A stretch of 64,000 bases of DNA from Fulvivirga lutea (GTDB lineage: Bacteria > Bacteroidota > Bacteroidia > Cytophagales > Cyclobacteriaceae). Location of the stretch: contig NZ_CP070608.1 in the NCBI RefSeq assembly GCF_017068455.1, positions 1,531,488-1,595,487 of the forward strand, in the 5' to 3' direction. The notes beneath the pieces were generated by a model. That model worked only from the letters and a program-made list of their open reading frames with translations. It was not told the origin of the DNA and made no database searches. A program made the position numbers and the translations under genes. This document shows positions 1-50,101 of this stretch, piece after piece (position 1 is the first letter of the stretch; each line of letters opens with the position of its first letter).

Positions 1-82
1 ATTCCAGATTACTAAGCATAGCATCTATACCTTCTAAGAGAAGCTTGTGATCATCTACTAAAAGCACTTTAATACTCTTCAT
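1..82 (-). CDS. Response regulator, N-terminal fragment (NarL/LuxR type likely)
   Basis: Only the first 27 codons are inside the window; the gene continues beyond base 1. The start of the protein (MKSIKVLLVDDHKLLLEGI) is a receiver-domain N-terminus with the acidic pair Asp10-Asp11 followed by His, the VDDH form typical of NarL/FixJ regulators that end in a LuxR helix-turn-helix. The ATG overlaps the stop of the upstream receiver gene (TGATG arrangement), so it is the last visible gene of the minus-strand signalling operon that begins at 6485. By analogy with the mirrored plus-strand operon, which also ends in a NarL-type regulator, it is probably the DNA-binding output of the cluster. The output domain itself is not visible, so that part is inference. 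Confidence 0.75.
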   Translation of the reverse strand, partial: MKSIKVLLVDDHKLLLEGIDAMLSNLE

Positions 83-447
83 CACACATTAATTATTTTA
101 TGAATTTCGTCCAATAAGTCAGTAGAGGAGCAAGGTTTTGTTATATACCCATCCACATTAAGTGATTTTGCGATTTCCATATTTATTGGATCAGTAAGAG
201 CTGAGAATATAATTACAGGTATATCCTTCGTTGCGTCCGTTTCTTTTACTTTCTGTAAAAGTTCGAGGCCAGTCATCTCAGGCATAAGTAAATCAGTAAT
301 TACTAAATCCGGTTTCTCCATCATAATTTTTTCTAAACCCTCCAGTCCGTTTCGAGCTGTAGAAATTTGAAAATTTTCCATTTCAAGTATATCTCGAATA
401 TTTTCGCGCAAGTCATCGATATCGTCAACAATTAATATTCTTTTCAT
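82..447 (-). CDS. Single-domain response regulator (CheY-like)
   Basis: A stand-alone receiver of 121 residues with no output domain. The phosphorylation site is complete: acidic pair Asp8-Asp9, phospho-acceptor Asp52 in TDLLMP, Ser82 in the Thr/Ser switch position and Lys104 in YITKP. Such proteins either shuttle phosphoryl groups between kinases and a final regulator or act by protein binding. It overlaps the upstream hybrid kinase by 4 bp (ATGA) and its stop overlaps the start of the next regulator, so all are co-transcribed and probably translationally coupled. The position between a receiver-kinase hybrid and a NarL regulator fits a phosphorelay intermediate, which is inferred. Confidence 0.9.
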   Translation of the reverse strand: MKRILIVDDIDDLRENIRDILEMENFQISTARNGLEGLEKIMMEKPDLVITDLLMPEMTGLELLQKVKETDATKDIPVIIFSALTDPINMEIAKSLNVDGYITKPCSSTDLLDEIHKIINV

Positions 448-2819
448 TCTTTAAGAGGCAATGTCACCTTGAATTTGGTACCCTTTTCTATTTTACTTTC
501 TAATTCGATGGTGCCTTTTAAAAGATTCACGGCCTTTTTAATTATAGACAATCCTAACCCGGTACCCTGAATTGATGTAGCATTTTTGCTTCTATAAAAC
601 TCGTTATAAATATTACCTAATTCATTTTCAGGGATACCAATCCCTTTGTCTTCAACTATAATTATAATTAAGTCATTATTTATCGAAACGTCCAATTTGA
701 CTACATCTCGTTCAGGGCTAAATTTGATTGCATTGTTGAGTAAATTGTTTATTATGTTTCGAATAAGCTTATTATCTAAATATACCTCTTCTTTTGTTGA
801 TGAGAATTTAAAATCAACAACATGAGAATTTTTACTTTGATTTTGAACTTCAATAATGAGCTTTTCACAATGTTCTTTTAAATTGAATACACTTTTTTCA
901 ACTTTAATCTTACCTGCCTTATCCTTACCAATTTCCAGAATATCATCCAGGAGATGCGTCATATGATCAGCTTGCTCTATAATGTTTTCCAACTTCACAT
1001 TAACTTTCTCCCAATCTATTTTAAGGTAATAATTCTTGATATAATCAGCTGCAAACTTGATACTTGACAATGGTGTCCTAAATTCATGAGAAGCCATAGA
1101 AACAAATTTGGTTTGCATGAGAACCAATTCTTTTTCCTTCTCAAGTGCCGCTTTCAAATCCCTGGTGCGTTCTTCAACCCGATATTCAAGATGATTTCGA
1201 TATTCAATTAATTCGGTAATGTCCTGTCCAACACAGATTATCCCCACATCTCCAGTTTCGAAATCTATCCTTGTATTACCACTGAAAAGAAAAATAACTA
1301 TTTCACCTGATTTGGTCTTTAGAGATAATTCACAATTACTTGTAATGCCATCCTCGATGATGAACGAAATGAAATCTCTTACTTTTTCTTGTTCATTGAC
1401 CATTACGAACTTCTCAAAGAGGTTCTTTCCTAAAACCTCTTTTTTGGCATAACCTGTAATATTCTGGGCGAAATCATTCCATTCTGTGATTTTACCATCT
1501 TTATCAATACCAAATATGGGGGCGTTTGCAGTCTTGATTAACTGTACAAGTTCTTGAGCAAGCCTGTTTAATTTCTTTTCACTTTCATAAGAGCTGGTTA
1601 CATCCCTAAATGAAATAACTGCTCCAAGTTTTTCTTCATGGATGCTATAAGGAGCACTATTAAAGATCAACCATTTGTGTTTAGAGCCATTTTTTAGCTT
1701 ATAAATAAAATTAAATTGAGTCTTTTCGTTAATGTCCTCTTTAACTGTAAAAAAGTCGGATCTCTGCAAAGGATTGTTTTCACTATCAAATACTGCAAAA
1801 TTATTGAAAATCAATTTTGAAAAAGTTATTTGGTCCAACTCTTCGATTTTCAAAAAGTGTTTGGCACTCTTGTTTGCATTTAAAATTTTTTCTTCTGAGT
1901 CAACTAAGGCTACTCCTTCAGTCATAGATTCCAGTACACTTTCATATTTGGCCTGATTTTCTTCAAGTAGCTTGTAAGCCTGTATTTGTTCAGTGATATC
2001 TCTAGAGGTGCTTACAATATTGTGAAGTTCACCATGCATGTAAATTGGTTCTGCAAGTGTCTCCAGATGGATGTAATTTTGATCTTTGCGTTTGATTTTG
2101 TATTTGAATCTTTGTAGTTCTACTATTGCTCCACTTTGTATGTGCTTAAAAACCAAGTCCTTTACTCTATTTACATCATCAGGATGTATCAATGAAAAAT
2201 AGGAGCATGATAGAAGCTCTTCCTGAGAATACCCCAATACCTTTATGGATGAGGGGCTTACCCAGGAAAACTCTCCGGTGGTATCATGAATACATACCAA
2301 ATCCTGTACATTCTGAGCCAACAACTGATAATACAACCGACTTTTGTCGAGTAGACTTTTAGTTTTCAACATTTTAAGTTGATTTCTATAATCTACAATC
2401 TCTCTTTTGATCGCAGGAATAAACCGTGATTCATGGTTATCTATAATATTATCTTTTAAAATAAAATCATCTGCCCCCATTTTCATGGCCTCTACTGCGG
2501 TTTCTTCTCCCACAGTACCAGAAACAAGTATAAAGGGTATGTGAGGGTTAATTTCTTTTGTGATGCGCAAGGCCTCAATGGCGTTAAATCCGGGGAGACT
2601 GTAATCACTGATGATTAAATTCCAGTCCTTATTATCTTTCAGTGCATCTCGCAATTCGGTAGGAGATTCTACTCGTTTCGTCTCAGCGTTAAGACCTGAT
2701 CGATTTATAACCCTTAAGATTAACTCATAGTCATCCACTGAATCTTCTACGATTAATATTTTGATCAATTCATTGGTGAATTTCTCTTCGTTATTCTTAT
2801 TAGCATCATTTTCTATCAT
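444..2819 (-). CDS. Hybrid sensor kinase: receiver-PAS-PAS-PAS-HisKA-HATPase
   Basis: A cytoplasmic kinase of 791 residues without membrane segments. An N-terminal receiver (about 19-140; acidic residues 25-26, Asp72, Lys122) is followed by three PAS domains (about 170-280, 291-412, 425-538), a short coiled coil, a HisKA dimerisation domain with His578 in SHEFRTPLSS, and a complete HATPase (N box near 692-698, G1 DKGIGIP near 724, G2 GTGLGLSI near 752). A receiver ahead of a kinase suggests it is itself controlled by phosphorylation from the upstream membrane kinase. It is separated by one base from the preceding hybrid kinase and overlaps the following receiver by 4 bp. What the PAS domains sense cannot be read from the sequence. 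Confidence 0.93.
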   Translation of the reverse strand: MIENDANKNNEEKFTNELIKILIVEDSVDDYELILRVINRSGLNAETKRVESPTELRDALKDNKDWNLIISDYSLPGFNAIEALRITKEINPHIPFILVSGTVGEETAVEAMKMGADDFILKDNIIDNHESRFIPAIKREIVDYRNQLKMLKTKSLLDKSRLYYQLLAQNVQDLVCIHDTTGEFSWVSPSSIKVLGYSQEELLSCSYFSLIHPDDVNRVKDLVFKHIQSGAIVELQRFKYKIKRKDQNYIHLETLAEPIYMHGELHNIVSTSRDITEQIQAYKLLEENQAKYESVLESMTEGVALVDSEEKILNANKSAKHFLKIEELDQITFSKLIFNNFAVFDSENNPLQRSDFFTVKEDINEKTQFNFIYKLKNGSKHKWLIFNSAPYSIHEEKLGAVISFRDVTSSYESEKKLNRLAQELVQLIKTANAPIFGIDKDGKITEWNDFAQNITGYAKKEVLGKNLFEKFVMVNEQEKVRDFISFIIEDGITSNCELSLKTKSGEIVIFLFSGNTRIDFETGDVGIICVGQDITELIEYRNHLEYRVEERTRDLKAALEKEKELVLMQTKFVSMASHEFRTPLSSIKFAADYIKNYYLKIDWEKVNVKLENIIEQADHMTHLLDDILEIGKDKAGKIKVEKSVFNLKEHCEKLIIEVQNQSKNSHVVDFKFSSTKEEVYLDNKLIRNIINNLLNNAIKFSPERDVVKLDVSINNDLIIIIVEDKGIGIPENELGNIYNEFYRSKNATSIQGTGLGLSIIKKAVNLLKGTIELESKIEKGTKFKVTLPLKE

Positions 2820-2820
2820 G

Positions 2821-4278
2821 CTATTGGGTATTTAATTGTAATTGCTCGGAATGAGGTATGAGTATGGTGAATAGCGTACCTTTATTAACTTCAGTTGTTA
2901 CAGCTATTTTACCATGTAATTTTTCTACTGCTTGCTTAACAATATATAGTCCCAATCCCGACCCGTCAGATCTCTCATCTCCTCTATAAAACATGTCAAA
3001 TATTTTATCCTGCAGTGGTTCTGGTATGCCCTTCCCGGAATCTAGAATTTTAATTAATATATCATTGCCTGATTCCCTTATTTCCAGCTCAATAGTAACC
3101 CTGCCATTGACATCAGCGCCATATTTAATCGCATTTTCAATCAGGTTTTGAATGATGCTTTTAAATAATAAAATATCTCCTTTTATCTTTAGCTTCTTAT
3201 CAATAAGTGTATTTATGGAGACCAAGCTTGTATTATAATTTGACGAAATAGAATCAATTATTTCTTGAATTGCCTGATTAACATGTATTTCGTACTGGAT
3301 GTATTTCCCATATTTTATGTTGGCTACATCACGAAGTACTTTCAATGTTTTTTTTAAATGACCAACCCTCACAGACATCATATTGATGAACTTTTCCTTA
3401 TCATAATCAGAGGTCATTTGCATGATATTTAACAGACCTTCAACAGAAGATACAGGTCCCTTCAAATCATGACCAATTCTGTAAAGTAAAACCTCCAATT
3501 CATTATTGAGCTTCTCCAGATTTTTTTGATTTAAGTACTTTTCGGTTACTTTTCGTATTAAGACAGTAGCACCAAAATTTGAAGAGGTAGCTGTGCCCTC
3601 AAAGTATTCGATTTTGTTTTTAATTTGACTCCTCAGATTGAATGTTTGCTTTTGTCCAGTGTCAATTGTCTTTTGTATAGTAATAAGTAGCTCTTCCTCC
3701 GCCCACTCTGGAAATAACGAAAGCAAATGGGCGTTTAATTCTACTTTCTTTTGAAATTCCCTCTCTGTAGCTGTATTCCAAAATAACAAATGAAGTTTAT
3801 CGTCAATGGCAAAGAATATGTCAGAGATACTTTCCATTAGATTCTTATATCTGAGCTCACTCAGAACTAAGTTCTTTCTATATTCTTTCTGACTTTTCTT
3901 TACTTCATATTCTTTAATCTCTCTCTTCAATACTGCAATCAGGCGATTCTGATTTGCTTTATTCACATAGTCATTTGCTCCTAAACGCATTAATTTTACT
4001 GCATTCTCTTCTCCAATAGTACCAGAAACAATAATGAATGGAATTTCCTGATTTACTTCACGAACAATTTTAAGAGCTGACGTAGCATCCATAGCCGGAA
4101 GTTTATTATCGCATAAGATCAAATCGTATTCTAATGAATTACACTCATTATACAATTCATCTTTGGAAGCTACCCGCTTAGACTGAAATTGTAAGTTAGC
4201 CTTCTTAAGTTCGAGACGTATTAATTCATAATCCTCGACTTCATCCTCTACAACTAATATTTTAATTGATTTATCCAT
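2821..4278 (-). CDS. Hybrid sensor kinase: receiver-PAS-HisKA-HATPase
   Basis: A soluble protein of 485 residues. The receiver spans about 1-125 (Glu11-Asp12, phospho-acceptor Asp57 in LCDNKLP, Lys107). One PAS-like domain follows (about 140-250). The kinase core has His270 in the unusual H box GHDLKGPVSS, an N box NLIENAIKYG, G1 DSGKGIP and G2 GSGLGLYIV, so it looks catalytically intact. It lies 3 bp downstream of the Rcp1-like receiver gene and 1 bp upstream of the three-PAS hybrid kinase. The closely similar order of receiver, PAS and kinase in both neighbours suggests duplication within the operon. The signal is unknown. Confidence 0.92.
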   Translation of the reverse strand: MDKSIKILVVEDEVEDYELIRLELKKANLQFQSKRVASKDELYNECNSLEYDLILCDNKLPAMDATSALKIVREVNQEIPFIIVSGTIGEENAVKLMRLGANDYVNKANQNRLIAVLKREIKEYEVKKSQKEYRKNLVLSELRYKNLMESISDIFFAIDDKLHLLFWNTATEREFQKKVELNAHLLSLFPEWAEEELLITIQKTIDTGQKQTFNLRSQIKNKIEYFEGTATSSNFGATVLIRKVTEKYLNQKNLEKLNNELEVLLYRIGHDLKGPVSSVEGLLNIMQMTSDYDKEKFINMMSVRVGHLKKTLKVLRDVANIKYGKYIQYEIHVNQAIQEIIDSISSNYNTSLVSINTLIDKKLKIKGDILLFKSIIQNLIENAIKYGADVNGRVTIELEIRESGNDILIKILDSGKGIPEPLQDKIFDMFYRGDERSDGSGLGLYIVKQAVEKLHGKIAVTTEVNKGTLFTILIPHSEQLQLNTQ

Positions 4279-4281
4279 TAC

Positions 4282-4710
4282 CTATTCAGTTTCTGGATAT
4301 GGATAGTTAATGACGAGCCAATACAAGCCGAGTTGACCAACTGCATCTACAAAGCTGGTAAAGTCTACAGGCTTCCTTACATAACTATTGGCGCCATTTT
4401 CATAGCATTTAACTACATCATCTTCCTGATTGGAAGTAGTCATAATAACCACAGGAAAATTTTTGGTGCTTTCGTTTTCTCTTATCCTTTTTAAAACTTC
4501 CAATCCGCTTAATTTTGGTAATTTCAAGTCGAGTAGAATTATTGAGGGTTTGATGGGTTTTCTTTCTTCTGAGCCAAACAATAAATCAAGGGCTTCTTCC
4601 CCATCTCTGGCCACTACTACCTCATTTAAAATATTATTTTTTTTAAAGGCACGAAGCGTAAGTATTACATCATCTTCATTGTCTTCCACTAGTAAAATCT
4701 TTCTTTTCAT
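4282..4710 (-). CDS. Rcp1-type single-domain response regulator
   Basis: A 142-residue receiver of the Rcp1 subtype, recognised by the NEDD acidic cluster (Glu9-Asp10), the long insertion LFGSEERKPIKP, Asp61 in LLDLKLPKLSG, Thr91 in MTTSNQ and Lys113 in VRKP. In cyanobacteria and many Bacteroidota, Rcp1-like receivers are the direct partners of phytochrome-like kinases with an HDLRxPLR H box. Here the preceding gene is exactly such a kinase and the two overlap by 4 bp, so it is almost certainly the cognate partner of the ethylene-receptor-like kinase. It has no DNA-binding domain. Confidence 0.93.
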   Translation of the reverse strand: MKRKILLVEDNEDDVILTLRAFKKNNILNEVVVARDGEEALDLLFGSEERKPIKPSIILLDLKLPKLSGLEVLKRIRENESTKNFPVVIMTTSNQEDDVVKCYENGANSYVRKPVDFTSFVDAVGQLGLYWLVINYPYPETE

Positions 4711-6485
4711 CTCGCTGTTTCATCAAGTTTGAAATAGAAGGTAGCTCCGTTATTTACCTTACTTTCCGCCCAAATACTGCCACCATGTTTGGTGATTATT
4801 CTCTTTACTATAGCCAGGCCTATTCCGACACCCTCAAACTCTTCTTGCTTATGCAATCTTTGAAAAGGACCAAATAATTTATCAGAGTGGTTGGTGTCAA
4901 AACCGACACCATTGTCCTTGATGTAAAAAACTTTATCAGTTTGGTCAACTCCTATTTGTATTAACGGATGTGCGACTTTTGAAGAATATTTGATGGCATT
5001 ATTAATTAAATTCTCAGCAGCAATGGTTAGAAGATTAAGGTCACCATGTGCTTTCATTTCTTTATCAATTTGAAAGTCATATTTATCCAAACCTTCTTTT
5101 TCATCAATAATTTGTTGACAAATTTCAGATAAGTTGACAGGCTCAAATTTTAATGGTTTCCTTGATATTCTTGATAGATTCAATAAATCATCAATCAAAC
5201 CGCCCATTTTTATGGCCGCCTTGATAATTCTTTTTAAATACGATTTACCTAACTCATCCAACTTTTCTGAATAGTCTTCTTTCAAGGCTTGTCCGAATCC
5301 ATTAATACTTCTTAATGGTGACCGTAGGTCATGGGATACGCTGTAAGTAAAAGAGTCAAGTTCCTCGTTGATGGTTTTTAAGCTGATAATCTTTTGCTCT
5401 AATTGTTTATTAATTTTTTGCTTTTCTATTTCCTGACGCCTCTTTTCCGTGACATCCTGTATTTGCTTGATAAAATATTGCAACTGCCCATTTGAATCAT
5501 AAGCTGCGGTAACATTAGTCTGGCCCCAAAGTAAGTTTCCATTTTTATGGTAGTACCTTTTTTCTAGTTCATAGTTTTTAATTTCCAGATTGTTCATTTT
5601 TGAAATCATTTCACGGGTAATCGCTAAGTCATCTTTGTGGGTGATGTCCAGATAATTTAGGCTTTTTAATTCGTCTTGGGCATAACCTAAAGTATTGCAG
5701 AGGGAGTTATTAACATCTAAAAAATCACCTTCCAATGAAACTATTGCCATCCCAATAGCAGAGTATTCTAAAATGGAGGTAAACTTCTCTTCACTTATTC
5801 TGAGTGAATCGTTAAGCTGTTGTAGTCGTTGTTCGGCTTCACTACGTTTTTTCACCTCTTCTTGTAGCTGATCATTAAGCATAGAAAGTTGAGTAACTTT
5901 TTTAGAGAATATCTCCTTAATAGCGTTGGGCCCCTTGTATTCCATCACAGAAGGAGCAATCTTAACCAAGGCTACTACAGAAATACTTGATACAATTGCA
6001 GTGAAAAACCTCAACCAGGCGCTTAGTTTATATGCGGGCCACCAAAAAATAATAGCATCAATTAAATGTGTTAAACCACAAGCTAAAATGAAAGTAATGA
6101 ATAGAAGGTAGACATATTTGAATGGTATCTCTCTTTGTTTCTTTATATAGTAAAACCCTAGCACACCCGGAATAGAAAAATATGCAAGCCAGGTAATAAT
6201 ATCTGAGATTATGTATAACCATCCATGTGCAGGAGACCATACTCCACAATTCCATCTTGCCGGCCATTGACTTGTATCAAAAACATAAAATAGGCTCGTG
6301 GCAACTGGCTCCGAAGCATCCTTATGGACTTCATTTGAGAATGAAGCTAACTTTAATTGACAGTTAGGAGAATGAATTCCTGGTTTTTGTGATGCAATAC
6401 ATGAAGTTATAGGATTGTCTGAGATATTCTGACAACTCGTAAGCCAAGTTATTATGACAACATATAAGAAGAATTTTGTCGCCAA
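4707..6485 (-). CDS. Ethylene-receptor-like (ETR1-type) membrane sensor histidine kinase
   Basis: A 592-residue kinase that opens the minus-strand operon. Residues 1-18 form a signal peptide with a possible lipobox (LTSC, Cys18), followed by a short exported stretch. Residues 88-180 form three membrane segments that match the ethylene-binding domain of plant ETR1: Asp95, Tyr102, Ile105, Pro106 in the first segment and Ile133, Cys136, His140 (CGLTH) in the second, which are the seven positions reported as essential for ethylene or copper binding. A coiled coil (190-228), a PAS domain (230-347), HisKA with His385 in SVSHDLRSPLRS and a HATPase (DNGVGFD, GVGIGLAIV) complete it. Homology to the domain is strong. 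Actual ethylene binding is an inference; the domain may sense another small ligand or bind copper. Confidence 0.93.
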   Translation of the reverse strand: MATKFFLYVVIITWLTSCQNISDNPITSCIASQKPGIHSPNCQLKLASFSNEVHKDASEPVATSLFYVFDTSQWPARWNCGVWSPAHGWLYIISDIITWLAYFSIPGVLGFYYIKKQREIPFKYVYLLFITFILACGLTHLIDAIIFWWPAYKLSAWLRFFTAIVSSISVVALVKIAPSVMEYKGPNAIKEIFSKKVTQLSMLNDQLQEEVKKRSEAEQRLQQLNDSLRISEEKFTSILEYSAIGMAIVSLEGDFLDVNNSLCNTLGYAQDELKSLNYLDITHKDDLAITREMISKMNNLEIKNYELEKRYYHKNGNLLWGQTNVTAAYDSNGQLQYFIKQIQDVTEKRRQEIEKQKINKQLEQKIISLKTINEELDSFTYSVSHDLRSPLRSINGFGQALKEDYSEKLDELGKSYLKRIIKAAIKMGGLIDDLLNLSRISRKPLKFEPVNLSEICQQIIDEKEGLDKYDFQIDKEMKAHGDLNLLTIAAENLINNAIKYSSKVAHPLIQIGVDQTDKVFYIKDNGVGFDTNHSDKLFGPFQRLHKQEEFEGVGIGLAIVKRIITKHGGSIWAESKVNNGATFYFKLDETAR

Positions 6486-6891
6486 AGTGAAATTATTTTA
6501 TGAAGTGCTAATTCATATTCTGAAAAAATGTAAATATTAATTGTATGAATATAATAAATTTACCAATAAAAACCATCATAATTTCACTTTTTTATTATTT
6601 TATTAGGTAATAACATACTGGATATTGCTCCCACAACATTAGTAATCAGGGATTTACAAACTAAAAATTTATACTTTTTAATTACTGAAAAACCTGAGTT
6701 TTTAAGGAAATCCCTTATTTGTATCTACACAAGTGGCTTGATAGCTTCTCCTAAACCTATTAATTATTTGCAAAATCCTTTGTTACATCTTGTTCTCTAC
6801 GTGAATCCCGTAATCGTCAAAATCAGCAATTCACGGATGTTTGGGCTTTTTTTTAGAGATACATTTGAATAGTGAACAAAATGATAATGCC
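6486..6891. other. 406-bp divergent intergenic region
   Basis: This AT-rich stretch separates the divergently transcribed ethylene-receptor-like kinase operon from the small secreted protein gene. No ORF of credible length is present. It holds an inverted repeat CGTGAAT (6800-6806) with ATTCACG (6829-6835), 22 bp apart, just ahead of the small gene, and a TAAGG/CCTTA inverted pair near 6700-6715. Promoters for both directions must lie here, but no convincing consensus element could be assigned. Confidence 0.55.
6800..6835. promoter_or_regulatory. Inverted repeat upstream of small secreted protein gene
   Basis: CGTGAAT and ATTCACG form a perfect 7-bp inverted repeat with a 22-bp spacer, 57 bp before the ATG at 6892. 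The ACGG-rich flank resembles the CGG-containing repeats after the sigma-54 activator gene at 11575-11627. It could be an operator or a leader hairpin; no function is established. Confidence 0.35.
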
Positions 6892-7512
6892 ATGAAAACT
6901 CTATTAACATCTCTTTTAGTTATTCTTAGTTCTATCGCATTTGCTGGTAATGATGGCCCGGAAAACAAACCATCTGACTCGCAAAAACTAGCAACAGACA
7001 TATTTCACGCCTATCAGTTATATAAGGCTAAGGATTATGATAAATGTAAATCACTAATGCAGAATCAAGAGTTAAACATTGTAAAAGATGTGCTGCATAA
7101 GGTATCGATGAGTACTGCAGTTGATAGTTTGATTTTTGAAAATCAAGAGGCCAACTTTTGGGCTTATTTAAAGTCGGTGGATCTCAATTATTTGCGAGAT
7201 ATAGAGGCTGTTTTTGCAGTGCAGGTAGAAGATACTGACGGCCTGTTAAAAGCTTTTAGTCAACTACTAAAATCAGATCAAAAGGACTTAATTAAAGAAA
7301 CAAGTAATGAGATTCACTTTAAGAATAGTTCTGGAGGATATGTTGTAGACCAACGGTTTAAGAATCCTTCTAAATCATATATTTCAAATTTGTATGAGTA
7401 TAAACTCATTAAGCTTGATGGATATGTAATTTTTGAACTTAAAGAATCAGTTCCTGCATTATTTGAGCCTTCTCTAGAACCTACTGAAAATCAATTACTT
7501 GCTGATAATTAG
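6892..7512 (+). CDS. Small secreted protein of unknown function
   Basis: A 206-residue protein beginning MKTLLTSLLVILSSIAFAG, a clear Sec signal peptide with an AFA cleavage site. I chose the ATG at 6892 over the in-frame TTG at 6841 because it places the signal peptide at the very N-terminus. The mature part is mostly helical and charged with no recognised domain or motif, and contains no cysteine beyond one near residue 60. It sits alone between two signalling operons and has its own strong terminator. A periplasmic accessory to the sensor kinases is possible but unsupported. Confidence 0.75.
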   Translation: MKTLLTSLLVILSSIAFAGNDGPENKPSDSQKLATDIFHAYQLYKAKDYDKCKSLMQNQELNIVKDVLHKVSMSTAVDSLIFENQEANFWAYLKSVDLNYLRDIEAVFAVQVEDTDGLLKAFSQLLKSDQKDLIKETSNEIHFKNSSGGYVVDQRFKNPSKSYISNLYEYKLIKLDGYVIFELKESVPALFEPSLEPTENQLLADN

Positions 7513-7554
7513 GTTTTTTTTGCTACTAAATTAAAGTCAAATTTTGAACTCACA

Positions 7555-7582
7555 AGAAAGGCACTAATGCTAGTGCCTTTCT
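7555..7582 (+). terminator. Intrinsic terminator after the small secreted protein
   Basis: A perfect 12-bp stem (AGAAAGGCACTA with TAGTGCCTTTCT) around the 4-base loop ATGC, followed by a T-rich run, 42 bp after the stop at 7512. Confidence 0.9.
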
Positions 7583-7706
7583 TTATTTACTGAATTATTG
7601 ATTTTAATCTTTATTAAAAAATGCTTATATTTTATTTTTATAAAAAACCATTACTATTCAATAAATTGAATAATACTAAGTTAAAGATTGACAAAATAAA
7701 TTCTGC

Positions 7707-10700
7707 ATGGTTAATTCATTGCATAATACTCTTAAGTCTATCGGGCACATCCTTGATCAAATTGACCATCATATTTGTTTATTAAATGAACAGGGTGATA
7801 TACTTCTGGTTAATAAGGCATGGAAGGATTTTGCGAGTGAAAATGGTGCAGTACACACTTCCTTTGAAGGCGCCAATTATTTCCATGCTAGTAACAAATG
7901 CGAGGCGGAAGTTGAGAAATTTATAGCCGAGGTCAAAAAAATACTTTCACGTAAAAAAGAGTATGCTGAAGTAGCGTACCCTTGTCATTCCCCAACTCAA
8001 AAAAGATGGTTTAAAGCTAAGGCCAGGCAAATTATAGTTGAAGATCAGCTTCATGCGATTATTATACATGAAAATCAAACTACAGAAGTTGGCCTGGCAG
8101 ATGAAATTGAGCTCTTATTAAAAATATCAGAAATCATCCACCACGAAGAAGATTTTTTAAAAGCGCTTAATGAGGTTCTAAAACTATTATGCGATTTTTC
8201 TCAATGGACGTTAGCTGAAATTTGGCTCCCACAAGAAGAAGCTTCACTGCTTAAATATAGTGGCGCTTGTTATTGTAAGAAAAGAGATCTGCAAGCTTTT
8301 TGTGAAGCCGCCAAAGAAATCAGATTTGAAAAAGGAGTTGGACTACCTGGAAGAGTTTGGGCAACAAAGAAATATTTATGGATCGAAAATTTAGCTGAAA
8401 GTAAAGACTTTTTAAGAGCTGAAATTGCAAATGAATTGGGAATTAATTCAGGCCTCGCACTTCCTATTTTATTTAATGATTCGATTCATGGTATCATGGC
8501 TTTTTTTCATGATGGTACGAAGAAAAAGGACCAACATTTATCGGAGTTAATATTTAGTATTTGCAAGCATCTCGGACTTTTATATCATCAAAAAAATCTG
8601 GCAGACCGACTAAAAAAGGAAAAAATATTTATGAGATCCATAGCTGATGACCAGTCAGAGATGATCGTGCGTTGGAAGCCAGATGGAAAGCGGTTATTTG
8701 TTAATCGTGCATACTGTGAAAAATTAGGTATTACTGAGGAGGAGGCACTAGGTACAAGCTTCTACGATCAAATCCCGGCCAATAGCCTAGTAAGAGTAAA
8801 AAAAATCATAAATGAGCTAACACCTGACAATCCTGTCAATTACGACAGAAATCAAATGATACTAGCCGATGGTAGCATCGAATGGCATCAGTGGATGAAT
8901 CGGGCTTTTTTTAATGAGGAAGGCAAACCAATCGAATATCAAAGTGTAGGGCAAAATATAACAACAGCGGTAGAATCTCAGGCCAAATTAGAAGAAAATA
9001 AAGAACGGCTGCAATTAACTTTAGAGTCCGCAAAAGTCGGCACATTTGATTGGTACCCAAAAGAAGATCAACTTTTCTGGGATGATCGATTATTCGAAAT
9101 ATTTGAAGTAGAGCCAACTCTAAATATAGACCTAAATGCTCACTTTTTTAATGTAGTACACCCTGACGATAAAGAGCGAGTGACGAGAGAATTTCAAGAA
9201 TCTTTAACAGAAGGTGGCAGAAGTAGTCATGAAATAGAATATCGGATTGTAATAAATGGAAAGACTAAATATATCCTAGCACATAGTCGAATATTCAGGG
9301 ATAAAAGTGGAGAAGTTATTCGAATGTTGGGAGCCTCACAAGACATCACTGAAATTCGAGAGGCAGAAAATTTTCTTCAATTAGTATTGGATTCTGCCAG
9401 TATTGGAACATTTGAAAATTACCCTCAACAAGATATATCCAATTTTGATAATAAGTTCAGGGAAATATTTGGCATTGATAAGGATGAAAAGGAAGAGCTA
9501 TCAGAAGCCTTTTTTAGTAGAATTCATCATGATGATTTGGATAAAGTAAGATCCCATTACGAGGAGAGGATTAAAAGAAATGGGCTCAATGAAATTAATC
9601 TCGAATATCGGATTGTGGTAGGTGGTAAAGTCAAAAATATCCTTGGTTATGGTCAGGTCATTAGAGATGGTAAAGGAGAAGCTTCACGGATCGTGGGAAC
9701 TGTTCAAGACATCACTCCTCTAAGGGAGTCAGAAGAAAGGATGCGGAAAAGTGAAGAGCGCTATAGAAATATTTTCAATCAACAATTTCAATATAGTGCG
9801 TTTCTAGATATGGAGGGTAAAATATTGGAAATTAATGACTTAGCTCTAAAAACCCAGAGAGTTTCAAAAGAGAGTTTTGTAGGGCGGTATTTTTGGAATT
9901 CACCGGGGTGGGAAGGCGACAACAATTTACAAAGGAAAGTAAAAAAACAAATTGATAGATTAAAAGATAAGGGTGAATCATTTATAACTGAAGACGAGTT
10001 TACTGATCCCTTAGGACAAATACATTACTCAACATCACATTACAGTTTGATACGGAATCAGAAAGGTGAGCCTGAAAACATCCTCGTCCAGGCAATTGAT
10101 GTAACAAATGAAAAACGATCCAAAAAAGAAGTAATAGAAAGGGAGCGTAAGCTTTCTCTCATATATAGTAATACAAATGATTTTATTCTATTAATTCGAT
10201 GTGAAGAGAAAAGATACGTACTTGAAGAGATAAATGATAGAAGTATAGAGTTACTTAAGTTCTTTGAACTCAACATTCCAAAATCAAGGCTGATCGGAAT
10301 CTCTATGAGAGAGGTGTATGAAGATTTAATCAAATATCCTAAAGAAAAAGTTGAAGAAAGGATTAAGAATTTTGATCTAATAAAAGATAATCGAAAACAT
10401 ATATCTTATCAACAAAGTATACAAACTGGTTTAGGGTTGCTTGTAACATCTGTAGATGTTGTTCCAGTCATTCAAGCAGATAAAGTAACTCATCTTCTGA
10501 TGGTAGCTAAGGATATTACAGAAAATTACTTGGGACAAAAGAAACTAGAAGAGGCTTATGAAGAAGTAAAAAAGCTTAAAGCCCAACTGGAGCAAGAAAA
10601 CATTTATCTGCAAGAGGAAATTAAACAGGCCAATGACTTCGAAAATATGGTCTTTAAAAGTAAGGAATTCCGTAGTGTTCTAAACAAAGTAGAACAGGTA

Positions 10701-11570
10701 GCCAATACGGATGCTACAGTTTTGATTACAGGGGAAACGGGAACAGGTAAGGAGCTTATTGCAAGAGCCATTCATAACGTAAGTAACCGTTCTGTGAAAC
10801 CTATGATTAAATTAAATGCTGCTGCCATACCCAAAGACCTTATTGAAAGCGAGCTATTTGGTTATGAGAAAGGGGCATTTACCGGAGCTACCACAAGTAA
10901 ACCGGGTAAGTTTGAATTAGCGGATGGTGGCTCAATTTTTCTTGACGAAATAGGAGATATGACGATGGACCTTCAAGTAAAAATTTTGAGGGTATTACAA
11001 GAAGGTGAAGTAGAAAGATTAGGTAGTACGTCAACTAAAAAAGTTGATGTAAGGGTCATTACTGCTACAAATAAAGATTTGGAAGAGGCGGTAAAAGAAG
11101 GGAAATTCAGAGAAGATCTTTTTTACAGGTTAAATGTTTTTCCTATTAAAATCCCACCATTACGATCCCGGCCGGATGATGTGCCTATACTCGTACAACA
11201 CTTTATATCTAAATATAACCTTAAACACAGCAAGAATGTGAATGTAATTCCTAAAACTGTTATGGATTATTTGAGAGCTTACACATGGCCGGGTAATATA
11301 AGGGAGCTTGAAAATACTATTGAAAGAGCAATCATTCTAAGTTCTGGTGAAACATTTGATTTACCCGAAGTAGTAAACAGCGCGTTTACCCAGGAAAAAT
11401 GGGAACATGATAATTCTTTGGATGTCGTAATGCAGAATCATATTCGCCAAGTATTGAAATCTTGTAATTGGAAAATTGAAGGTGAAAACGGAGCAGCAGT
11501 TCAACTGAAAATTAAACCAAGTACGCTACGTGATAAGATGAAAAAATTTAACATCGAACGTCCGAATTAA
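7707..11570 (+). CDS. GAF/multi-PAS sigma-54-dependent transcriptional activator
   Basis: A very long enhancer-binding protein of 1287 residues (typical members have 450-700). The sensory part holds an N-terminal PAS (about 1-125), a GAF domain (about 129-295) and about five PAS domains between 305 and 940, then a coiled coil. The AAA+ sigma-54 domain has Walker A GETGTGKE near 1008, the sigma-54 contact loop GAFTGA near 1056, Walker B SIFLDEIG and the arginine-finger region [11 protein letters not shown]. The C-terminus has a Fis-type helix-turn-helix of the NorR/FhlA style ([12 protein letters not shown]). It should activate RpoN promoters in response to a cytoplasmic signal, with no receiver domain. 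A -24/-12-like element lies just downstream at 11715-11730. The ligand is unknown; PAS 435-550 and PAS 560-680 look like an internal duplication. Confidence 0.94.
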
Positions 11571-11574
11571 CTCA

Positions 11575-11627
11575 CGGCATTTCGTGGAAGTCGATTTCTA
11601 CTCAAGGTAAGCCTCGGTATTCCGTGG
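11575..11627. repeat. Two 13-bp direct repeats, each partly palindromic
   Basis: CGGCATTTCGTGG (11575-11587) and CGGTATTCCGTGG (11615-11627) recur 40 bp apart, about four helical turns, just after the activator stop codon. Each carries an internal palindromic core (CACG/CGTG in the first, CGG/CCG in the second). Spacing in whole helical turns suggests paired protein-binding sites, perhaps for the activator encoded immediately upstream. A terminator role is less likely because the T run is short. Confidence 0.4.
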
Positions 11628-11668
11628 GTTTTTGATTGCATCGATTAGTAGAAACATTTTGAATATAT

Positions 11669-11683
11669 CTGACTATCAGTCAG
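11669..11683. promoter_or_regulatory. Inverted repeat CTGACT-ATC-AGTCAG
   Basis: A perfect 6-bp inverted repeat with a 3-base centre, 31 bp ahead of the sigma-54-like element at 11715. The position fits a regulator site for the downstream signalling operon, though classical sigma-54 enhancers lie further upstream. Confidence 0.35.
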
Positions 11684-11714
11684 TTAAAAATTTAACATCA
11701 AGCTTTTATATTAC

Positions 11715-11730
11715 TGGCACACCCCTTGGT
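11715..11730 (+). promoter_or_regulatory. Candidate sigma-54 (-24/-12) promoter
   Basis: TGGCAC at 11715-11720 matches the -24 element exactly and TTGGT at 11726-11730 matches the -12 element except that GC is replaced by GG. The two GG/GC-type dinucleotides are 12 bp apart, the obligatory sigma-54 spacing. It precedes the STAS-like/kinase operon and follows an enhancer-binding protein gene. The expected transcript start, about 12 bp downstream, falls almost on the GTG at 11742, implying a leaderless message or a later start. Confidence 0.4.
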
Positions 11731-11741
11731 ATAGCGTTTTT

Positions 11742-12140
11742 GTGAAACGTACAAAAAAAGGTATTGTATTAAGAACCGGAAGGCACTGGATTAAAGGGGC
11801 GATATTTTATTCAGAACTATTTGTATCAGAAGATTTTCCAATTGTAGATCGTCAAGCGATAACAGAGCACATTGACATTCTCGATGATTTTATTGGAAAT
11901 AAGAAAATGCTGTTTTTAAGTGACGTTTCAACATCTGATAATATACTCAGTTTTGATGCCCTAAGGGTTTGGGGGGGTAACGAGTCGCTCAATAAACATC
12001 GGTTAGCTGAGGCGTTTGTAGTTAGCTCATTAGCTGATGTATATTTTTTTAAGCAGTACATCAGATTAAACGATTTGGCATATCAGGCTAAAGTATTTAA
12101 TGATAAAAAGGAAGCAGTTAATTGGTTAAGTGAATTATGA
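11742..12140 (+). CDS. STAS/SpoIIAA-like small protein
   Basis: A 132-residue protein without membrane segments. Its pattern of alternating strands and helices, with KKMLFLSDVSTSD in the middle and a C-terminal FNDKKEAVNWLSEL helix, resembles the STAS-like/SpoIIAA-like proteins common beside Bacteroidota two-component genes (the C-terminal NWL helix is typical). These usually bind partners rather than catalyse. The start is a GTG; no in-frame ATG exists upstream of residue 55. It overlaps the next kinase gene by 4 bp (ATGA) and so heads the plus-strand signalling operon. The family assignment is by overall pattern, not by a decisive motif. Confidence 0.65.
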   Translation: MKRTKKGIVLRTGRHWIKGAIFYSELFVSEDFPIVDRQAITEHIDILDDFIGNKKMLFLSDVSTSDNILSFDALRVWGGNESLNKHRLAEAFVVSSLADVYFFKQYIRLNDLAYQAKVFNDKKEAVNWLSEL

Positions 12141-13948
12141 AAATTAGTAAAATGGAGGAAGGGGTTATGGATTTAACCGTTGATAGATTGGATGGATTCG
12201 AAGAACGTACACAAATAAAAGTCTTGTACTTAGAAGACAACTCAAGTGATGTAGATCTTTTAGAAATTGAGTTATCAAAAACAGGTAATTATCTTATTAA
12301 AGCGATAGAAACTAAGGATGAATTGATAAAAGAGTTGAAGGGCGAATATGATATTTTTATCTGTGACTACTGTCTTGTTGGATTCGATGGAAAAGAAGCT
12401 GTTAAAATTGCCCAAAAAATCAGACCTGATATCCCTCCTGTTATATTATCTGGAACAGTGGGAGAAGAAGAAGCCGTTAATATATTACATTCAGGTGCTT
12501 ACGATTTTATTCTGAAGCAAAATCTTAAACGAATACATCGTGTAATTGATAGAGTTATTCAAGAAGCAACAAGAAGAAAACAAGCTCAGATATACCTGAA
12601 AGAATTGGAAGATAAAAACGCTTTACTGAACTCAATTCTTGATAGTTTGGACGACTTGATGTTCTTCAAAGATACTGAAGCAAAATACATACGTGTTAAC
12701 AAAGCATTTGTGAATTATTTTAATATCTCTGAAGAAAATATTATTGGGAAAACCGATCGAGATCTTTTTTGCGCAGAGATCTACAATAAAACCGAAGAAG
12801 CTCATGAGAAGGTTGTAAAAAATGCAAAATCCGTTAGGTTTCATACAGAATACATGAAGTCAAATGGTAAGTTTTCCATTTTAGAAATTGTAAAAACCCC
12901 TATAGTAAGCAACGGTAAGGTAATTGGGTGGGTAGGTGTTAGTAGGGATGTTACTGAGAAAAGACTACTGGAAGAAATGCTTAGACGTAATCAATTAACC
13001 TTAAGTCAAGCTGAAGAAATTTCTGGAGCTGGAAGTTTTGAGTTGAATGATGATCTGGGGGTTTTGAGATGTTCGGCTAATCTCTTAAAGATTTTCCATA
13101 TTAATTCGGAACATGATCAAATATCTCTAAGTAAACTCTACAACATTGTTTATGAAGCCGATAGAGTGCTCTTTATGCAGCAATTTCAAAATGCAATTAA
13201 AAATAAAGAAGCATTAAGTCTGACTCATAGAATATTTATCGATAATGATATTAAGTATTGTAAGACAAGTATTAGGCCCGATCTAACCAATAATAATGGT
13301 CTTTATTATGGTATCGTAGTCAATATGACGCCTGAGCGAAAGCAAGAGGATATTATAAGCAACATACAGGAGAGTGAAAGAAAGCGCATTTCTCGTGAAT
13401 TGCATGACAGCATCGGTCCGAAACTGGCCGCGGCCATGATGTATATGGATCAGTTACATATTAAAGAACAAGATGAAAAAATTGCTAAAGTACGCACCAT
13501 CGTTTTAGATTCTGTAAATGAAATTCGGGATATCTCCAGAAGTTTATCTGTGAAAATGGTTGAAGATAATGGCTTGGAAAACGCCATTGAGGATTTATTT
13601 GACCATATCCCTTCTGAAATTGAAAAGGAAATTAAAGTTGAAATTAATGAGGACGAGATAAGTCCGATGATAGCAGCTCAGGTTTATCGCATCGTTCAAG
13701 AGGCAATTAACAACATGCTTAAACATTCTGAGGCATCTGCATTTAAGTTTTCAATGGTTCAGGATCAGTCAATTTTAAAGTTGGATATTAAAGATAATGG
13801 GTCGGGCTGTAACATTCATGAAGCGAATGGTAAAGGAAATGGAATCAAAAATATAACCCATCGCGTGAAGCGTTGCCATGGTATAGTACGGTATTCTTCT
13901 GATAAAGGCAATGGGTTTAGTATTGAGATTAAAGTGCCAGTAAAATGA
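12137..13948 (+). CDS. Hybrid kinase: receiver-PAS-PAS-HisKA_3-HATPase
   Basis: A soluble kinase of 603 residues. The receiver (about 25-145) has Glu33-Asp34, Asp77 in ICDYCL and Lys127. Two PAS-type domains follow (about 163-280 and 290-400). The dimerisation domain is of the NarX/DesK HisKA_3 type, with His423 in SRELHDSIGPKLA, and the HATPase ends with KDNGSGC and GNGIKNI. HisKA_3 kinases usually pair with NarL/LuxR regulators, and one closes this same operon at 16065. The gene overlaps both neighbours by 4 bp. The first ATG (MKISKMEEG) is in the overlap; a later start at residue 6 or 11 is also possible. Confidence 0.92.
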   Translation: MKISKMEEGVMDLTVDRLDGFEERTQIKVLYLEDNSSDVDLLEIELSKTGNYLIKAIETKDELIKELKGEYDIFICDYCLVGFDGKEAVKIAQKIRPDIPPVILSGTVGEEEAVNILHSGAYDFILKQNLKRIHRVIDRVIQEATRRKQAQIYLKELEDKNALLNSILDSLDDLMFFKDTEAKYIRVNKAFVNYFNISEENIIGKTDRDLFCAEIYNKTEEAHEKVVKNAKSVRFHTEYMKSNGKFSILEIVKTPIVSNGKVIGWVGVSRDVTEKRLLEEMLRRNQLTLSQAEEISGAGSFELNDDLGVLRCSANLLKIFHINSEHDQISLSKLYNIVYEADRVLFMQQFQNAIKNKEALSLTHRIFIDNDIKYCKTSIRPDLTNNNGLYYGIVVNMTPERKQEDIISNIQESERKRISRELHDSIGPKLAAAMMYMDQLHIKEQDEKIAKVRTIVLDSVNEIRDISRSLSVKMVEDNGLENAIEDLFDHIPSEIEKEIKVEINEDEISPMIAAQVYRIVQEAINNMLKHSEASAFKFSMVQDQSILKLDIKDNGSGCNIHEANGKGNGIKNITHRVKRCHGIVRYSSDKGNGFSIEIKVPVK

Positions 13949-15534
13949 TAAAGTGGTTGAAGTCCATATTCGCCAAAAAGAGAAATGTGATTAACACTTT
14001 ACTACTCTATGTTGTAGTAGCACTTATCTCATTTTCTTTTACTGGTGAAAGTAACATTAAAAATAGTAAGTCGACATCCACGGAAGCTCATCAGGAAGTA
14101 AGTCATAGCATTACTTCCAAAAGTATGACTCAGAGCTCGAGCAATGGCAATATATTTCCTGCATCACAACAATCAAACGATCATGATTGGTGGGCTGGAA
14201 TTATAACTCCAATAGCGCTGTTTTTGGTCTTTACAGTCGGCTTTATCACCAATGGATTGCTGTACTATAATTCTCGTAAGCAAGCAGCCATCGAAAAATT
14301 AAAAAAGTTAAAAAGAATTAACGAGATTCTTGAAAAACGGATAGCGGAACAAACCAGTCAATTAAATAATGACAAAAAGGAGCTTGAGATTCAATCCAAC
14401 AAATTGAATTTGGCTTTACAAGTAGGAAATATTGGTATTTGGGATTGGGATCTACACAGTGGTTCTTTGGAATGGGATAGCTGTATGTTGCATATATTCA
14501 ATTATCAACCACATGAATTAAACAATTCCTATGAAGATTTTGCAAATCGCGTACATCCAGAAGATTTAAATCGTGTAAAGGATGAAATTGAAAAATCGAT
14601 AGCTTCTCATGAATTATTTAGATCTGAATTTAGACTTCAATTAAAGAATGGTGATATAAAGTATTTGACAGGAATGGGCTGTGTCATCTACAATGATCAA
14701 AGCGAAGCCGTGAGAATGATAGGCACCAACCAGGACGTTACGCACACCAGACTGATACAAAAGAAGCTGGAACTCACCAATGAACAGCTGGAAGAAAAAG
14801 TAGCCTTGCGTACTATTGAGTTGGCCGAAAAAATAAAAGAGTTAGAGGAAGTAAATGCCGATCTCAGATCGTTCAGCTATTCGGTATCGCATGACCTGCG
14901 AGCCCCTCTTCGTGCCTTAAGTGGGTTTTCTGATGCACTTTATGAAAGTTTTGGTGATGCTCTAGGAGAAAAAGGCAACCGATGGGTCAATTTTATTAAA
15001 AAGAATGCCGCACATATGGATGATCTTATTGAAGATATTCTAGCATTATCAAGAACTACTCAGCGTCCCATCAGTAAGACGGTCGTGGATATGAAATCAC
15101 TTGCCTTAACAGTATTTGAAGAAAATAAACTTCTATTTCCAAATGTTAAGTTCAATTTTCAAGTGGATGACCTTGAAAATGTGTCAGCTGATGCCGGACT
15201 CATGAAACAACTGTGGCAAAACTTAATTTCCAATGCCATGAAATATTCTTCTCAGAATGAGAACGCAACCATTACAATAAGCAATACAGTGAGTTCAACT
15301 AAGGTCACGTACAGCATAAAGGACAATGGGGTAGGATTTGACGATCAATATAAAGATAAATTATTTGTACTCTTTCAGCGCCTGCACTCCAGCGCTGAGT
15401 TTGAAGGAACGGGCATTGGTCTTACCATAGCCAAAAAAATAGTAGTAAAGCATGGGGGTGAAATTTGGGGTGAAAGTAAGGGGCAAGGTGCCACGTTTTA
15501 TTTTTCACTTCCATTAATAAAAAAGAAAATATGA
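13945..15534 (+). CDS. Membrane PAS sensor histidine kinase
   Basis: A 529-residue kinase with two membrane segments (about 16-36 and 88-112) enclosing a Ser/Thr/Asn-rich periplasmic loop of about 50 residues, then a coiled coil, one PAS_3 domain (about 150-265), HisKA with His316 in SYSVSHDLRAPLRAL and a HATPase (DNGVGFD, GTGIGLTIAKKI). The kinase core closely resembles that of the ethylene-receptor-like kinase at 4707-6485, and like it is followed directly by an Rcp1-type receiver (4-bp overlap). The periplasmic loop is short and low in complexity, so the PAS domain is the likelier sensor. Confidence 0.92.
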   Translation: MIKWLKSIFAKKRNVINTLLLYVVVALISFSFTGESNIKNSKSTSTEAHQEVSHSITSKSMTQSSSNGNIFPASQQSNDHDWWAGIITPIALFLVFTVGFITNGLLYYNSRKQAAIEKLKKLKRINEILEKRIAEQTSQLNNDKKELEIQSNKLNLALQVGNIGIWDWDLHSGSLEWDSCMLHIFNYQPHELNNSYEDFANRVHPEDLNRVKDEIEKSIASHELFRSEFRLQLKNGDIKYLTGMGCVIYNDQSEAVRMIGTNQDVTHTRLIQKKLELTNEQLEEKVALRTIELAEKIKELEEVNADLRSFSYSVSHDLRAPLRALSGFSDALYESFGDALGEKGNRWVNFIKKNAAHMDDLIEDILALSRTTQRPISKTVVDMKSLALTVFEENKLLFPNVKFNFQVDDLENVSADAGLMKQLWQNLISNAMKYSSQNENATITISNTVSSTKVTYSIKDNGVGFDDQYKDKLFVLFQRLHSSAEFEGTGIGLTIAKKIVVKHGGEIWGESKGQGATFYFSLPLIKKKI

Positions 15535-15983
15535 TAAACGAATCAAATATAGTACAAATACTTCTTGTTGAAGATCGAGAAGAGGATGGGGAACTGGCGC
15601 TAATGGGCCTGGAATCTCTAGTAAATAATATTAAATGGGTAAAGGATGGAGCGGAGGCTCTGGATTTTTTGTTCGGAAGAGGTATGTACGAGGGAAGGTC
15701 AATTAATGAACAACCAAGACTTATTTTGTTGGACATTAATCTTCCAAAGGTTAACGGATTAGAAGTTTTAAAAGAAATTAGGAGTAATCCAATTACTAAA
15801 GCCATTCCGGTAACTATTCTTACCACGTCTAAAGATGAAAAAGACATCTATGAGGCATATAATTTAGGAGTGAATAGCTATATCAGTAAACCTGTAAGTT
15901 TTGACCAATTCTCAAAAACAGTAAAAGAAGTTGGTATGTATTGGTTGGTTATTAACACTCCACATATTAATCAGAGCTCATAG
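15531..15983 (+). CDS. Rcp1-type single-domain response regulator
   Basis: A 150-residue receiver with acidic residues in LLVEDREEDGE, phospho-acceptor Asp68 in LLDINLPKVNG, Thr-Thr-Ser switch (LTTSKDEKD) and Lys in YISKPVSF. It is the same subtype as the receiver at 4282-4710, and the C-terminal signature MYWLVINTP resembles the YWLVINYP of that copy. It overlaps the preceding kinase by 4 bp and is presumably phosphorylated by it. No output domain is present. Confidence 0.93.
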   Translation: MINESNIVQILLVEDREEDGELALMGLESLVNNIKWVKDGAEALDFLFGRGMYEGRSINEQPRLILLDINLPKVNGLEVLKEIRSNPITKAIPVTILTTSKDEKDIYEAYNLGVNSYISKPVSFDQFSKTVKEVGMYWLVINTPHINQSS

Positions 15984-16064
15984 CACCGAAATGAATGAAC
16001 AGGTAAAAGTATGTTTTCAATACTGTAAAGTGAGGCAATATTTTATAATTAAAGCAAATTGAAG

Positions 16065-16721
16065 ATGAAAACGATATTATTAATAGACGACCACGAGCTC
16101 ATAAGAGATGCTATTAAATACTACTTTAGTGATGATGCGGATTATGTAGTAAAAGATGAAGCTACAAATGGTGAAGAGGCACTGGAGTTGCTAAAGAATA
16201 ACAGCTATGATATTCTCATCTGCGACATAAACATGCCCAAAATGGATGGAATGGAACTGATGGAAAACATTAAACGGAATTATCCTGATCAAAAAGTATT
16301 AGTGCTTTCCATGCACGGAGATGTTAGTGCCATCAACAAGATGATATCCTTGGGCGCACATGGTTACACATTAAAAAACTCTACAAAACAAGACCTTAAA
16401 ACGGCCATAGGCCAAATATTGAATGGTGAAAATTACTTTTCAAAAGATGTGTATGAAGCCATTATTAATCGTATTGCAAAGAAAGAACCTAAGAAACGAT
16501 TATCACTAGAGATAGAATTAAGTTCTCGAGAAATAGAGGTTCTAAAACTTATCGTAGCAGAATTTACTAATCAGGAAATAGCAGATCAGTTATTCATTAG
16601 TATCCGTACGGTAGAAACGCACAAGCGAAACCTTTTAGAAAAAACGGGTTGCAAAAATGTGGCCGGGCTCGTCATGTACGCAGTAGAAAGAGATCTTGTG
16701 GGCAGCGAACCTACTCATTAA
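16065..16721 (+). CDS. NarL/LuxR-family response regulator
   Basis: A 218-residue regulator with an N-terminal receiver (Asp8-Asp9, phospho-acceptor Asp54 in ICDINMP) and a C-terminal LuxR helix-turn-helix (about 150-215: LSSREIEVLKLI, TNQEIADQLFISIRTVETHK). The ATG at 16065 is preferred to the TTG two codons upstream. It follows the Rcp1-like gene after 81 bp and is followed by a strong terminator, so it is the last gene of the plus-strand operon and its DNA-binding output. The most plausible phosphodonor is the HisKA_3 kinase at 12137-13948. Confidence 0.94.
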   Translation: MKTILLIDDHELIRDAIKYYFSDDADYVVKDEATNGEEALELLKNNSYDILICDINMPKMDGMELMENIKRNYPDQKVLVLSMHGDVSAINKMISLGAHGYTLKNSTKQDLKTAIGQILNGENYFSKDVYEAIINRIAKKEPKKRLSLEIELSSREIEVLKLIVAEFTNQEIADQLFISIRTVETHKRNLLEKTGCKNVAGLVMYAVERDLVGSEPTH

Positions 16722-50037: not shown

Positions 50038-50101
50038 AATTATAAATTTCCCTCCCTAGAGTGGAATTGTGCACGTTTGATATTTCGGATAATGACGAGC
50101 A

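Follow-up and report, generated by a model that had tools for sequence, protein, structure and literature searches.

Two bacterial ethylene receptors, SynEtr1 and AzoEtr1, have been published as functional (PMC11819568 and PMC6682694, available portions), and many proteobacterial and cyanobacterial homologues are mentioned in the available portions of reviews (PMC11819568, PMC6682694, PMC7700396). AzoEtr1 is reported to bind ethylene, and its gene to be overlapped by one encoding a single receiver (PMC11819568, same portion). In the plant receptor ETR1, excerpts report that seven residues are essential and S98 is moderately important (PMC6586836), and that Asp25, Cys65, and His69 form the copper site (PMC12643061). 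For Bacteroidota, no account of an ethylene receptor was found in the available excerpts of the open-access literature (including PMC10452086, PMC13211072, and PMC6944256).

The window analyzed here (the whole stretch of 64,000 nucleotides, G000:C1:1531488-1595487) comes from the 4.14-Mb genome of Fulvivirga lutea and encodes a kinase with the same type of sensor domain (ETR1_N). A first-pass annotation of this DNA had treated such receptors as best known in plants and a few cyanobacteria. Rarity outside those groups was not borne out: AzoEtr1 is already published (PMC11819568, available portion), and ETR1_N was detected in 21 of the 395 phylum genomes sampled, in 48 of 196 from the family, and in 8 of 15 from the genus, against none of the 14 controls. 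The domain profile also matched records of Alpha- and Betaproteobacteria, Deinococcota, Cyanobacteriota, Verrucomicrobiota, and Planctomycetota. With the window domain as query, tblastn hit 19 of 72,556 plasmid records at E ≤ 1e-3 (seven of them Azospirillum), and no relative was confirmed among the 28 stretches of viral contigs that matched two peptide patterns. Judged by its sequence, the window kinase is a further member of a family already known in bacteria.

The kinase gene heads an operon on the minus strand (4707..6485; ORF reading and Pfam) and encodes 592 aa when counted from a TTG codon at 6485. Because ATG is absent between this TTG and residue 181, the start is putative and the N-terminus is provisional up to about residue 65. 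Residues 1-67 (6285..6485, minus strand) form an extension that resembles a signal-peptide or lipoprotein start by eye, and a Cys in it recurs in relatives. The ETR1_N domain spans residues 87-182 (5940..6227, minus strand; Pfam PF25487, E 1.2e-29, 102.9 bits against a cut-off of 27). Pfam matches 3' of the sensor were PAS at residues 235-347 (PAS_3), HisKA at 377-441, and HATPase_c at 482-590, and simple patterns for the H, N, G1, and G2 boxes were all matched, in agreement with the earlier description of a complete ETR1-type sensor followed by PAS and HisKA/HATPase, the kinase being intact by sequence. At E ≤ 0.001 Pfam placed no GAF domain between sensor and kinase but PAS instead, which sets the protein apart from plant-type ETR receptors, defined by a GAF at that position. 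From the profile match and the seven residues, the protein appears to belong to the ETR1_N (PF25487) bacterial ethylene-receptor-like kinases.

All seven residues are present in the head kinase as D95, Y102, I105, P106, I133, C136, and H140, which we take to be the equivalents of ETR1 Asp25, Tyr32, Ile35, Pro36, Ile62, Cys65, and His69 (ETR1 numbering from the first-pass annotation and the ETR1 sequence). Their presence had been stated correctly, but the accompanying claim of matching spacing fails by a single residue in the first loop, where P106 and I133 lie 27 residues apart vs 26 for P36 and I62 in ETR1; the remaining spacings are equal. Asp95, Cys136, and His140 correspond to the ETR1 copper ligands. 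Across 77 distinct domains (76 bacterial plus ETR1), 63 carry all seven residues, and two of the other 14 are incomplete rows. At the K91 position the head kinase has Arg (Arg in 30 and Lys in 37 of the 77), and at the E38 position it has Val, Glu occurring there in ETR1 only. After removal of near copies, 56 of the 74 rows used for the domain tree remained, and among these all seven positions ranked within the 18 most conserved of 106 columns; given the relatedness of the rows, the corresponding C(18,7)/C(106,7) of 1.3e-6 has descriptive value only. At the position of ETR1 S98 (S166 in the head kinase), all 56 non-redundant rows have Ser, and an outer-loop Cys (C80) is invariant in the 48 of 48 rows having that column.

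This conservation bears on whether the site might serve as a copper sensor, with Cu(I) held by the same residues and kinase output tracking metal loading and not ethylene. The C65 and H69 positions are Cys and His in 76 of the 77 domains each, the D25 position is Asp in 69 and Asn in 6 (uncovered in 2), and ETR1 is stiffened by Cu(I) alone (PMC12643061, excerpt), all of which would fit such a sensor. However, the Y32, I35, P36, and I62 positions, which are not copper ligands and would not be needed by a pure metal site, are kept in 74 of 77 domains each, and none of the six operon proteins matched a copper-handling family in Pfam; we regard a copper sensor as unlikely.

A structural model of residues 62-200, built from five sequences, contained three long helices (residues 85-116, 122-146, and 152-181) at moderate confidence (pLDDT 67.8, pTM 0.53), as predicted for the three transmembrane helices that characterize ETR1_N. 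Judged by 100-degree spacing along the helices of this weak model, residues 95, 102, 105, and 106 would share one face of helix 1, and residues 133, 136, and 140 one face of helix 2. With the weak model as query, solved structures gave 0 matches by fold at E ≤ 0.001. A sequence search returned no solved homologue of the domain; its best hit, a thiamine transporter at an E of 0.11 only, was rejected as a solved relative.

A domain tree was built from 74 of the 77 rows and 120 columns by a quick search, with L007, L022, and L067 left out as partial or aberrant. The tree divided into two halves across a branch with an SH-aLRT of 93. One half, the WPARW/HGW branch, holds 39 rows, i.e., 37 Bacteroidota (window included), one Verrucomicrobiota, and one Planctomycetota; the 35 rows of the other include AzoEtr1, other proteobacteria, cyanobacteria, Deinococcus, ETR1, and 23 Bacteroidota. 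Of 71 inner branches, 12 are starred and 30 open, and the exact place of ETR1 is unsure because of its long branch and the midpoint root. The monophyletic Bacteroidota branch that the first-pass annotation had suggested looking for was not recovered: Bacteroidota rows occur in both halves, and a single clade was rejected (p-AU 0.013, from a quick search of 120 columns with few firm forks). The sequence-based placement of the head kinase domain in the WPARW/HGW branch, apart from AzoEtr1 and ETR1, is new here, as are the varying operon heads and the split form described below. To our knowledge, no member of this branch has been tested.

The separate position of the branch and its own outer loop are what one would expect if a small ligand other than ethylene bound at the Cu(I) site, e.g., carbon monoxide, propene, isoprene, or another algal hydrocarbon, and sunlit dissolved organic matter yields other alkenes along with ethylene (PMC6682694, available portion). 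We nevertheless think another ligand rather improbable, given that all seven ethylene residues are kept and that the sequence hints at no particular alternative.

Directly 3' of the head kinase lies a gene for a single-domain response regulator of 142 aa (4282..4710; Pfam Response_reg), overlapping it by 4 bp, which makes a kinase-regulator pair of the AzoEtr1 kind. It is followed on the same minus strand by genes assigned by Pfam to a histidine kinase with an N-terminal receiver (2821..4278), a receiver - three PAS - histidine kinase (444..2819), and a second single-domain response regulator (82..447). These five genes are spaced by -4, 3, 1, and -4 bp. A sixth starts at window position 85 by coordinates (1..85, minus strand) and runs beyond the window; read from the flank (L081:5414-6073), it encodes a 219-aa receiver - GerE/LuxR-type DNA-binding response regulator. 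The six-gene operon proposed in the first-pass annotation is thus upheld by the in-window genes, with their 4-bp overlaps or gaps of 1-3 bp, and by the sixth gene in the flank, as is its description as a phosphorelay operon headed by an ETR1_N kinase, and the operon also recurs in the genus. On the upstream side of the operon (intergenic region 6486..6840), a promoter scan of 6400-6900 found two promoter-like matches vs 3.6 expected from shuffled sequence, and a clear operon promoter was dropped as a candidate, its matches not being above shuffles. No known RNA family exceeded its gathering score in window positions 1-16000.

Several other features were observed around the operon. A 1287-aa GAF/multi-PAS protein with a sigma-54 activator AAA domain (window 7707-11570, plus strand) adjoins it on the opposite strand. 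On its 3' side (L081:1-5318) are a PorP/SprF-like gene and a large PKD-like protein, both named by eye, and this arrangement recurs, again by eye, in L125, L126, L128, and L129. A second phosphorelay cluster (window 11742-16721, plus strand) encodes a DUF7793 protein, a receiver-PAS-HisKA_3 kinase, a PAS kinase, a single receiver, and a LuxR-type regulator; the PAS kinase has 36% identity to the ETR1_N kinase over 424 residues and is without ETR1_N. Further along, five tandem proteins of 235-261 aa with similar membrane segments at their starts are encoded on the minus strand (window 49252-53047), those at 49252 and 50102 being nearly alike at their starts.

We consider that the head kinase probably senses ethylene or another small alkene in a Cu(I)-dependent manner and feeds a relay to the LuxR-type regulator. 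From the observed ETR1_N domain and operon and their conservation, we infer a ligand, a bound copper, and a direction of phosphate flow as follows. A homodimer would hold Cu(I) at its first two helices, and ethylene or a similarly small alkene would get to the copper from the membrane. The resulting change might be relayed by the third helix via the PAS domain and so alter autophosphorylation. Phosphate would then pass to the overlapping receiver protein, on to the receiver-kinase hybrids, and finally to the LuxR-type regulator, which would alter transcription. Against this reading weigh the Arg and Val at the K91 and E38 positions, the distance of the branch from AzoEtr1 and ETR1 on the domain tree, the weak structural model, the genus genomes whose head kinase is without the domain, and an ACC deaminase profile that stayed below its cut-off in this genome. 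A copper P-type ATPase is present but was discarded as support, being uninformative: 13 of the 14 controls also score above the cut-off.

Closely similar operons occur in the genus, and we classed 15 genus genomes by operon head from fetched loci. An intact ETR1_N kinase heads the operon in five (G000, the window genome, G582, G583, G585, and G591), and a decayed one does so in G586 (L090:5192-6973), where the Y32 position is Cys and the H69 position is Tyr; its ETR1_N still exceeds the Pfam cut-off and is, by sequence, a natural loss-of-site variant. In six genomes (G429, G496, G551, G587, G588, and G589) the head kinase is without ETR1_N, and the input is therefore dispensable there. In G590, as at a second locus of G588, the receiver-kinase has no adjoining head kinase, and the operon in the form described was not seen in the remaining two (G572, in broken contigs, and G584). 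The receiver-kinase gene of G585 (L085:8014-8538) appears cut short, with 174 aa open and then a gap. Intact ETR1_N heads (L083-L086) have 46-48% identity to the window kinase over 366-377 residues; heads without the domain have 41-46% over 361-375 PAS/kinase residues (L126, L127, and L130-L132) or 50% over 254 residues (L125). A single receiver sits beside all six ETR1_N heads, that of G586 among them, and beside three of the six heads that are without the domain (G551, G496, and G588, not G429, G587, or G589).

On a head-kinase tree of 13 rows (12 from the genus plus L098 from outside it, the decayed head counted as present), at least three changes of ETR1_N presence can be claimed because starred forks force them. 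Label shuffles reached the observed three changes or fewer in 48 of 500 trials, so clustering of the ETR1_N label is weak. The simplest reading of these sequences is that the sensor part was repeatedly lost or replaced at the operon head, and repeated gain of ETR1_N is a possible alternative. The pattern is best explained by a shared relay with head kinase inputs that differ between species, ETR1_N being one of them. The decayed head of G586 and the six heads without the domain could also be read as signs that ETR1_N is a relic or structural anchor here and that ligand sensing has been lost. The window gene, however, encodes all seven residues and an unbroken set of kinase motifs, and the genome retains a second ETR1_N kinase of 381 aa (L080:4149-5294, G000:C1:59907-60194) with an overlapping single-receiver gene, and we find loss of sensing very improbable for this kinase. 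A CheR-like gene (named by eye) lies upstream of that second kinase.

We read 20 fused Bacteroidota ETR1_N kinases with downstream sequence (L054, L080, and L083-L100). On the WPARW/HGW side, a receiver gene overlapped the kinase end or lay within 16 bp of it in 13 of 16 (the decayed L090 included; exceptions L088, L089, and L099), and the window gene is a further positive on this side; on the other side (L092-L095), the count was 0 of 4. Among 13 other loci (L056, L057, L101-L104, and L133-L139), several of which end soon after the kinase, a receiver was confirmed in L101 (AzoEtr1) and L103. All receivers named here were confirmed by Pfam; receiver-like sequences after L057 and L136 were recognized by eye.

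A split form was found at 11 loci (L069-L079) in which ETR1_N lies in a frame of 155-203 aa; a twelfth, in G400, was left out as it reaches a contig end. In 11 of 11, the first protein gave a Pfam match to ETR1_N and to no kinase domain; HisKA and HATPase_c were detected in the protein encoded by the following gene, and that gene overlaps the ETR1_N gene by 1 to 8 bases. A single-receiver gene comes next in nine of the 11 (not in L072 or L077). One such cassette (L071:4148-6200) consists of a free-standing ETR1_N membrane protein, a separate kinase, and a single receiver. The free-standing protein may interact with the kinase encoded beside it. It is conceivable, and we propose it only tentatively, that the WPARW/HGW branch, mostly Bacteroidota, is a separate gas-sensor lineage that has an outer loop and wiring peculiar to it, i.e., a relay operon with interchangeable head inputs in the genus, and, in related genomes, control of a separate membrane kinase by a free-standing ETR1_N membrane protein. 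If this were true, ethylene or a related alkene would be an ecological signal for WPARW/HGW bacteria, and ETR1_N could serve as a detachable ligand-binding subunit.

A plant-hormone receptor domain thus recurs in Bacteroidota signalling, beyond cyanobacteria and plant associates. Intact, decayed, and missing ETR1_N at the head of one operon, plus the split form, are natural test material, and ethylene sensing outside plant-associated bacteria is therefore directly testable.

Compared with known systems, the head kinase resembles Arabidopsis thaliana ETR1 in the same seven residues of the domain and the kinase that follows, whereas ETR1 has GAF and not PAS, a fused receiver, E38, and an outer loop about seven residues shorter (hand alignment). 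Plant signalling runs via CTR1 (PMC7700396, available portion). SynEtr1 (slr1212, Synechocystis sp. PCC 6803) is likewise an ETR1_N kinase signalling by kinase activity and phosphorelay (PMC11819568 and PMC6682694, available portions), but it is also a photoreceptor and governs phototaxis; it is likened to the head kinase by description only. Other Bacteroidota ETR1_N kinases (e.g., L002, L059-L063, L065, and L066) share the WPARW/HGW domain and often an adjoining receiver gene, while their PAS number and operon context vary. AzoEtr1 of Azospirillum brasilense is an ETR1_N kinase with all seven residues and a single-receiver gene overlapping its 3' end (L101, which starts MFGGVEAF, matching the primer in the available portion of PMC11819568), and the A. 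brasilense record has 38% identity over 76% of the 123-aa domain query. It differs in having a PHGVC outer loop, vs WPARW/HGW here, and in its place in the other half of the domain tree. In the available portion of PMC11819568, AzoEtr1 is paired with its regulator, perhaps as part of a larger unit, and neither receiver-kinase hybrids nor a LuxR-type regulator are described.
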